A stretch of 64,000 nucleotides of DNA from Gemmatimonadota bacterium (lineage in GTDB: Bacteria > Gemmatimonadota > Gemmatimonadetes > Longimicrobiales > RSA9). The notes beneath the pieces are model-generated. The model was given only the letters and a program-made list of their open reading frames with translations. It made no database searches and was not told the origin of the DNA. The stretch lies in contig JBDLIA010000003.1 in the NCBI GenBank assembly GCA_039715185.1, positions 1 through 64,000 of the forward strand, written 5' to 3'. The translations under genes and the position numbers were made by a program. Shown here piece after piece: positions 45,873 through 48,578 of this stretch. Positions within the stretch are counted from its first letter, which is position 1, and every line of letters begins with the position of its first letter.

Positions 45873-46619
45873 TCAGCCGGACCGTTGCAGCCCGAGGCTT
45901 CCGCACGCCGGGCTGCCGCCGCGTGTCATCGCCTGCAGATAGAACGCCGCGGTCTCGAAGCTGAAGTCGCCGTTGCGGCGCATCTGCTCCAGGTCGAAGC
46001 GCGCTACCAGGTCGCGGTAGCCGTCCGCCCCGCCCGCCCCGCCGATGTCCGCGAGCCGAGTGGTGAACGCCGGCGTGCCGCCCTGCCCGCCGTCTCCAAG
46101 ACGGAAGGTGCGCGGGTCGAACGACGCCACGTCAGTTCTGGCAGAGCCGAACACGACGACCTCGAGGGCGCCCGGTACGGCTTCGACCTGCCAGTCCAGG
46201 TTGCACACGAACGACGCCACCGGTGCGCAGTCGGTGAACGGGCTGGCGAGATCCTCCTGGCCGGGCCCCGGTATCGAGCGCACCTGCACGCAATACGGAC
46301 CCGCCCGGAAGTTCACGTCGCCGACGTCGAATGTCGCGGCGCTGGCTCCGTGAACGATCTGTGAGGGAATGGTCGTGCCGCCGGCGGGGTGCCGTACGAC
46401 GACCTCGAACGAACTGACCTCCCCGGCGCTCTCCCAGGCGACGAGAAGACTCGTCCCCGAAACGATGGGCTGAACGGCCGCGGGTTGCGGAAGGCGCGGT
46501 GGCGCCGACTCCGCGTACAACGCCGTGATCGCCGGAGGGGCGAATGGGGCGGCGAACGTCCAGAGGGCCGCCACCAGGCCGAGCGCGCAAACCGCGCCCA
46601 ATACGCGATTGAATCGCAT
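45873..46619 (-). CDS. Secreted protein with fibronectin/Ig-like domain
   Basis: The ATG at 46619 has a GGGAG site 8 bases upstream. Residues 1-22 are a signal peptide (VLGAVCALGLVAALWTFAAP). A strand-rich domain at about residues 45-115 (PIVSGTSLLVAWESAGEVSSFEVVVRHP ... YCVQVRSIPG) has the look of a fibronectin type III fold. The second half, with four cysteines, is not recognised. Its leader contains a GEMM-type aptamer and an intrinsic terminator, so its expression is probably set by a cyclic dinucleotide. A surface or biofilm-matrix role would fit, but is an inference. Length is 248 residues. Confidence 0.75.
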   Translation of the reverse strand: MRFNRVLGAVCALGLVAALWTFAAPFAPPAITALYAESAPPRLPQPAAVQPIVSGTSLLVAWESAGEVSSFEVVVRHPAGGTTIPSQIVHGASAATFDVGDVNFRAGPYCVQVRSIPGPGQEDLASPFTDCAPVASFVCNLDWQVEAVPGALEVVVFGSARTDVASFDPRTFRLGDGGQGGTPAFTTRLADIGGAGGADGYRDLVARFDLEQMRRNGDFSFETAAFYLQAMTRGGSPACGSLGLQRSG

Positions 46620-46637
46620 GCAACTGCTCCCTTCGAG

Positions 46638-46660
46638 AAAAAGGATCCGGAAAACCGGAT
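46638..46660 (-). terminator. Intrinsic terminator in the leader of the 46619 gene
   Basis: On the minus strand ATCCGG, loop TTTT and CCGGAT form a perfect 6-bp stem followed by CC and five T residues. It begins 5 bases after the aptamer's closing stem and ends 18 bases before the start codon. This is the classical form of a riboswitch expression platform, and one of very few T-tract terminators in this GC-rich window. Confidence 0.8.
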
Positions 46661-46665
46661 TTTCC

Positions 46666-46749
46666 TCCTTCGGTAGCCCGGCCGTCTCCCGCGGAGACCC
46701 GTTGGCTTTGCGGACCGGCCTCGCGGCCGGGGTGCCCTGAACGAAAGGA
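46666..46749 (-). promoter_or_regulatory. GEMM-type riboswitch aptamer (c-di-GMP-I class)
   Basis: Read on the minus strand, the closing stem TCCTTTCG pairs with CGAAGGA. Inside it are AGGGCA, a perfect hairpin CCGGCC-GCGA-GGCCGG with a GNRA tetraloop, the conserved junction CGCAAAGCC, a second hairpin GTCTCC-GCG-GGAGAC, and the 3' conserved part GGCCGGGCTACCGA. Order, tetraloop and the CGCAAAGCC and CCGGGCTACCG blocks match the GEMM family. GEMM aptamers bind c-di-GMP (class I) or, in one variant, cGAMP. Which ligand applies here cannot be told by eye. It precedes an intrinsic terminator and a secreted protein gene. Confidence 0.8.
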
Positions 46750-47366: not shown

Positions 47367-48578
47367 ATGTCGCAAATGATCCACCGCTTCATAAGAGACC
47401 GCAAAGGTTCCGTGCTGGTCATCGTGGCGCTCGGCATGCCGGTGCTGATCGGCATGGCGGGCCTCGCCATCGACGTCGGAGCCCTGTTCGTCGTGCGCAG
47501 CGAACTCCAGCGCGCAGCCGACGCCGGCTCGCTGGCCGGCGCGAGCGCCTTCCTCGATTTCCCGAAGGACCGCGCCGCTCCGGTCGCTACGCAGCGCGCC
47601 CGGGATTTCACGCTGAACCAGGTTTCGCGCGAGGTGAGCCTCCGCCCCGAGGAGATCAACATCCAGGTGGATCCGGCCAACGAACTCGTGCGGGTCACGA
47701 TCTCGCGGGCGAACAACGAGACGTTCTTCGCCAAGATCTTCGGCGTTCACACGGTCCCGATTCAGTCGGCGGCCGCGGCGCAGACTGCGCCCGGCGGGAC
47801 GAACATCGCCTGCGTGAAGCCGTTCGCCCTGCCGGACCGCTGGATGGAGTCCATCAGCGACGACGGCAACAGGATCTGGGACCCGTGGGAGAGCTGGCAG
47901 TACGACCCCGAAGGCGGCGACCAGTATGAGTCGTACGACTGGGAGGACCCCACCAGCACCACCGCCACGGGCTACGGCAGCGACTGGGCGTACGACGTCA
48001 ACAGCGACCACAAGGGCGACTACGGAAGGCTGCTGACGATCAAGGCTTCGCAGGACAACGTGGACCCGGCGGACGCGCCGGTGGACTCGTTCTTCTTCCC
48101 CTGGATCATCCCCGACGAGGAGGGCCGGGTCGGCGATGAGTCGTGCGCCGAGGCGAACGGGGAATCGGGGGCGAGGCCGTACCGCGCCAACATCTGTCAG
48201 TGCAACCTGACGCCGGTATTCATCGGCGAGGAGTACGAGACCGAGAACGGCGACATGGAGGGTCCCACGATCAAGGGCGTGAACGACCTCTACGATCAGG
48301 ACCCGACGGCGTTCTGGGACGGCCACGTCGTGCGCAGCGACTACGGCCTGAACGCCGGCCCGCGCGTGATCACCATCGGCGTGTTCGACCCGTCCGAGTA
48401 CCTGAAGCCCGGGAAGAGCACCATCGCGTTCAACAACTTCGTGCGCGTGTTCATCGACGAGCGCATGGCCGGCGAGGCGGAGCCGGTGCGCGCCCGCATC
48501 ATCGGTCCGGGCATTGGCAACAGCTTCTCCGACGTTGGTGGCGGTAGCCTGGTGAAGGTGCTGCGGCTGGTCGAATAG
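47367..48578 (+). CDS. TadG-like pilus-assembly/pseudopilin-related protein
   Basis: The N-terminus FIRDRKGSVLVIVALGMPVLIGMAGLAIDVGALF is the TadE/TadG-type signal: a short basic leader, then one hydrophobic helix. It is followed by RSELQRAADAGSLAGASAF, the typical start of the TadG repeat region. The remaining 300 residues are acidic and aromatic with no recognised domain, and include a Cys-rich stretch (ANICQCNLTPVFI). GGAGG lies 6 bases before the ATG. No other tad genes are in the window. It is probably anchored in the inner membrane with a large periplasmic part. Length is 403 residues. Confidence 0.8.
   Translation: MSQMIHRFIRDRKGSVLVIVALGMPVLIGMAGLAIDVGALFVVRSELQRAADAGSLAGASAFLDFPKDRAAPVATQRARDFTLNQVSREVSLRPEEINIQVDPANELVRVTISRANNETFFAKIFGVHTVPIQSAAAAQTAPGGTNIACVKPFALPDRWMESISDDGNRIWDPWESWQYDPEGGDQYESYDWEDPTSTTATGYGSDWAYDVNSDHKGDYGRLLTIKASQDNVDPADAPVDSFFFPWIIPDEEGRVGDESCAEANGESGARPYRANICQCNLTPVFIGEEYETENGDMEGPTIKGVNDLYDQDPTAFWDGHVVRSDYGLNAGPRVITIGVFDPSEYLKPGKSTIAFNNFVRVFIDERMAGEAEPVRARIIGPGIGNSFSDVGGGSLVKVLRLVE

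Follow-up and report, generated by a model that had tools for sequence, protein, structure and literature searches.

The window, i.e., the whole stretch of 64,000 nucleotides under analysis, belongs to a Gemmatimonadota genome (assembly GCA_039715185.1, contig JBDLIA010000003.1) and encodes on its minus strand a 248-residue protein starting at 46619, behind a leader that comprises a c-di-GMP-I (GEMM-I) aptamer, a terminator-like hairpin and a Shine-Dalgarno region. The stem closing the aptamer, P1, is formed by UCCUUUCG (46749-46742) and CGAAGGA (46672-46666), with 7 pairs and one bulged U; 3' of it follow, in this order, five bases, the hairpin ATCCGG-TTTT-CCGGAT (46660-46645), CC, TTTTT (46642-46638), CGAAGGGAG and the ATG at 46619. 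The features considered below are:

46742-46749, minus strand: P1 5' strand, UCCUUUCG, predicted alternative partner of the Shine-Dalgarno copy (sequence, constrained folding and duplex energies)
46669-46746, minus strand: c-di-GMP-I (GEMM-I) aptamer of the G20/A47/C92 type (cmscan and covariation in P2 and P3)
46666-46672, minus strand: P1 3' strand, CGAAGGA, predicted to serve alternatively as outer terminator arm (whole-leader and truncated-transcript folding)
46638-46660, minus strand: terminator-like hairpin ATCCGG-TTTT-CCGGAT, CC, TTTTT (sequence; not above chance by pattern scan alone)
46627-46635, minus strand: Shine-Dalgarno region CGAAGGGAG, which nearly repeats the P1 3' strand (sequence; in the minimum free energy fold, MFE, of the full leader its partner is the P1 5' strand)
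45873-46619, minus strand: target gene, 248-residue protein with an N-terminal signal peptide and an Fn3-like first domain (open reading frame; heuristic signal-peptide call)

A sequence scan of the element's region found no promoter-like sequence. A TadE/TadG-like Flp pilus protein (PF13400, E 2.2e-11) is the product of the divergent neighbour (47367-48578, plus strand), whose upstream region is turned towards the riboswitch.

The target gene and its conservation

The target protein has no match in Pfam or NCBIfam. Its first domain is related by Foldseek to fibronectin type III domains and monobodies (probability 1.0, E ~2e-3), on an AF2 single-sequence model of low confidence (pLDDT 53.5) that can serve only as a hint; of the secreted fibronectin-like protein announced in the preliminary description, the secretion is right, with a hydrophobic N-terminus that a simple heuristic calls a signal peptide, and the fibronectin part stands at the level of that model. 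Searches of 61 relatives, 295 genomes of the class and further genome and viral contigs gave no full-length orthologue. The C-terminal part is common to three other proteins (28-35% identity), and the stretches around them contain no GEMM element. In the family, the listed GEMM elements and the homologues of the neighbouring HEAT-repeat gene are on different contigs, so that the element is not seen conserved at this locus.

Identity and structure of the aptamer

The preliminary description had assigned the element to the GEMM family, on the minus strand, and had proposed a covariance-model search among the ways to check it. That search gave a significant result: at gathering thresholds, Rfam cmscan returned a single match in the whole window, RF01051 at 46746-46669 (minus), covering the model at full length (1-87) with 50.0 bits (gathering score 35; E 8.8e-7 in the 64 kb). 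The genome-wide search found the same site (E 1.2e-8), in a genome with five elements above the cut-off. Family and strand are thereby confirmed, and the conserved blocks are all in place, since after the P1 5' strand come AGGGCA, a GCGA-capped P2, CGCAAAGCC, P3 and the CCGGGCTACCGA block.

Covariation was evaluated in an alignment of 19 compact-form aptamers (that of the window plus 18 more, of which one belongs to this genome too), in which pairs were counted after correcting for one inserted A in the window's row; the P3 of this element has one extra A. Two-sided changes occur in P2 at pairs 24-35 (GC to CG), 25-34 (GC to AT) and 26-33 (CG to TA), and in P3 at pairs 50-90, 52-88, 53-85 and 54-84. 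These seven covarying pairs remain paired in 18 or 19 of the 19 rows, the core of P1 is paired in 14-17 of them, and at the junction GGCA and CGCAAAGCC do not vary in any row. The secondary structure is real because P2 and P3 change on both sides and yet stay paired. Support for the fold comes from the covariance model and the covariation, and not from the MFE z-score, since the plain MFE of the 112 nt lies within what their composition would give (z -0.64) and is uninformative. By these two lines of evidence, 46669-46746 (minus) is a genuine c-di-GMP-I aptamer beyond reasonable doubt, and a normal representative of an established family of riboswitches.

Ligand class

The specificity position (model position 11, equivalent to Vc2 position 20) is a G in this element, whose J2/3 segment, GCAAAG, keeps A47 and whose 3' block, CUACCGA, holds C92 (G20, A47 and C92 in Vc2 numbers). 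The numbering was anchored on the crystal structure of a cGAMP riboswitch, with A14 at the position equivalent to Vc2 20, and on the G20A mutant of GEMM-I solved with cGAMP (PMC6274999). The contact residues G20, A47 and C92 point to c-di-GMP as the very likely ligand. Of the two ligands initially offered for the element, c-di-GMP or cGAMP, the first is favoured by the presence of G20 and the second lacks its A20. The cGAMP type (GEMM-Ib) was rejected, as position 20 is G and not A.

Binding of another dinucleotide, be it cGAMP or the ligand of c-di-GMP-I-GGC, is very unlikely: the top raw score in the clan does belong to the latter model (RF03167, 52.6 against 50.0 bits for RF01051), but it falls short of that model's own cut-off of 59, G20 speaks against cGAMP, and GCAAAG stands where the model consensus has GCGAAG, so that the defining G47 is absent. 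RF03167 was rejected on these grounds.

GEMM elements and c-di-GMP enzymes in the genome and lineage

The statement that the window encodes no cyclase or phosphodiesterase holds, in that no GGDEF or EAL domain is encoded there, but both are present elsewhere in the genome, with 7 GGDEF matches over the cut-off (at least six domains), 4 EAL domains and, as receptor domain, one PilZ, none of them on the contig of the window. GEMM elements were found in 31 of the 61 related genomes searched, with up to 19 per genome, and of 200 genomes of the phylum, 99 have matches to the RF03167 model. Sibling elements mostly precede lipoproteins or secreted proteins: a signal peptide or lipobox was called in 69 of 91 distinct predicted GEMM targets, against 10 of 43 genes of the window (Fisher p 1.5e-8; calls by a simple heuristic, and targets picked heuristically as open reading frames, not from annotations). 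Pfam domains in sampled targets comprise GH26, bacterial Ig-like (in a Big-domain lipoprotein), curlin repeats, subtilase and a CEMIP beta-helix. The element of the window fits this lineage pattern of c-di-GMP riboswitches placed on surface or secreted proteins, and the reuse of the same RNA before lipoproteins and Ig-like, curlin-repeat and hydrolase proteins in related genomes makes a surface or matrix regulon probable. The new c-di-GMP output foreseen for this lineage is therefore new in a narrow sense, that of a protein with no orthologue found, but GEMM elements here usually have a secreted or surface protein as their target. A search within a limited set of papers found none joining riboswitch, c-di-GMP and Gemmatimonadetes, and the predicted control by c-di-GMP is here placed on a secreted protein of the Gemmatimonadota.

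Several observations concern other elements and enzymes of the lineage. Two of this genome's five elements (L002:1501-1587, i.e., G000:C20:4235-4321, plus strand, and L005:1501-1592, i.e., G000:C21:40563-40654, minus strand) belong to a coherent A20/G48 subtype, more surprising than the element of the window, that combines A20 with a G at the next J2/3 residue (GCAGAG, the A48 position) and a CGCUG/CAGCG P1. This subtype counts dozens of members in the Gemmatimonadota and is matched too in Nitrospirota and other phyla. Its A20 suggests cGAMP as a possible ligand, but in G031, whose nine listed elements all belong to the subtype, and in G010, every GGDEF domain with a readable motif is of the canonical Asp kind. 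Hypr-type GGDEF domains (GHxxGS, for instance of the GHLAGS type, with an intact GGDEF), which are candidate cGAMP synthases, occur in 8 of 61 genomes (loci L223-L228, L230 and L231, in G021, G039, G027, G025, G029, G049, G004 and G009). The Hypr-like GGDEF of the window's own genome (L042/L229, G000:C82:1332-1805, plus strand) is degenerate, with GHEVGS, GGAEF and Ser for Asn, and is probably not an active cyclase. Tandem GEMM elements are found at L049, L068, L091, L077, L100 and G051:C431; an A20-type and a G20 element lie before the same gene in G005 (C64), G035 (C607) and G051 (C231), a possible two-input arrangement; and one compact element (L052, G007:C146:6753-6839, plus strand) has a C at position 20, where G or A is the rule.

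Leader folding and the proposed switch

The preliminary description took the hairpin for an intrinsic terminator. A perfect hairpin with a stem of 6 bp does lie five bases after P1, with five T residues behind it, but the T run begins two bases past the stem, and terminator-like sites in the region occur at chance density, not more rarely. Because a simple pattern scan expects 1.5 such sites by chance per 1.7 kb, the case for a terminator rests on position and not on score; the mechanism is plausible by position, but is not established.

In folding, pairing of CGAAGGA with the U-tract region lengthens the hairpin (-18.1 against -10.1 kcal/mol for the short form). The short core does not overlap P1, and the extended form is exclusive with it. 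For the full leader, the MFE structure (-61.8) joins the P1 5' strand, UCCUUUCG, to CGAAGGGA, the copy at the Shine-Dalgarno site; forcing P1 gives -51.6. This complementarity between the P1 5' strand and the Shine-Dalgarno sequence recurs in five other compact-type elements (duplex energies of -10.8 to -16.4 kcal/mol, z <= -2.4); 10 of the 16 tested elements are without strong pairing of this kind, and no covariation was found in it beyond what partner swapping between loci gives (permutation p 0.36).

It is probable that the c-di-GMP-I riboswitch controls the 248-residue secreted Fn3-like protein starting at 46619; as to direction, folding would make it an ON switch, with chances that we regard as about even. 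Without c-di-GMP, the P1 3' strand would pair at the U tract and extend the terminator hairpin, the P1 5' strand would pair with the Shine-Dalgarno copy, and both transcription and translation would be damped; with c-di-GMP, P1 would close the aptamer and withdraw both strands, leaving only the short hairpin and a free Shine-Dalgarno sequence, so that at high c-di-GMP a surface or matrix protein would be made in larger amounts, in keeping with a sessile state. The full two-layer form of this model, with the P1 3' strand as outer terminator arm and the P1 5' strand as anti-Shine-Dalgarno, is unlikely to hold in its entirety. If it were true, one binding event of c-di-GMP would free the transcription and the translation of a lineage-restricted surface protein; unless it holds, the element itself brings no new principle. 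The two leader states are predicted to differ by 6 to 10 kcal/mol, a wide gap for a ligand to bridge at equilibrium, and the switch would therefore have to be kinetic. Moreover, the short terminator, with its core outside P1, could persist when ligand is bound, and the ON model is not forced.

Is the hairpin then a terminator at all? That it is not, and that the element acts purely on translation, is the best placed of the alternatives, a real if minority possibility. Most related elements look translational: only 5 of 99 have a hairpin and a T run, and many G20 elements have the Shine-Dalgarno sequence inside or beside the P1 3' strand and the ATG 10-17 nt past the aptamer. The chance density of terminator-like sites is in line with this reading, against which stands the position of the hairpin, exactly between aptamer and start codon and with its five T residues.

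Rather unlikely is an OFF switch of the Clostridioides Cd1 kind, where the aptamer with c-di-GMP bound and P1 closed exists alongside the short terminator, and the antiterminator is a structure of the ligand-free state only. P1 lies next to the short core and both can form together, inspection by eye shows 4 potential pairs between UACCG in the aptamer and CGGU in the terminator arm, and Cd1 acts in this way with a homologous aptamer (PMC9262584). However, folding yielded no competing antiterminator, the best terminator-free fold (-38.3) being far from the energies of folds with the hairpin complete (about -47 or lower), which argues against this type of switch. Finally, a decayed or cryptic copy with no regulatory effect, to which the extra A in P3 and the lack of conservation of target gene and locus in relatives might point, is highly improbable with all contact residues intact, P1, P2 and P3 complete, and Shine-Dalgarno sequence and open reading frame undamaged.

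Comparison with known systems

The C. difficile Cd1 c-di-GMP-I riboswitch, an OFF switch, is alike in placing a c-di-GMP-type aptamer before an intrinsic terminator (in the window, the terminator-like hairpin), and differs in that no competing antiterminator is predicted in the leader described here. The c-di-GMP-I-GGC class (RF03167) has a similar architecture and scores slightly higher in raw bits than RF01051, but the element lies below its cut-off and is without its consensus G47. The proposed logic resembles that of the Geobacter pilM cGAMP riboswitch (GEMM-Ib, an ON switch), in which the P1 3' strand is common to aptamer and terminator and the two are mutually exclusive; in the window, unlike pilM, G20 replaces A20 and P1 can coexist with part of the terminator core. 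As to the c-di-GMP-I riboswitch proper (GEMM-Ia, RF01051, as in Vibrio cholerae Vc2), the element differs from the Vc2 type in its GCGA loop and CACCCC/GGUCC P2 base, typical of the compact Gemmatimonadota form, and in the one extra A of P3, and shares with it the full-length model match, the residues G20, A47 and C92, the GNRA-capped P2 and the three-way junction.
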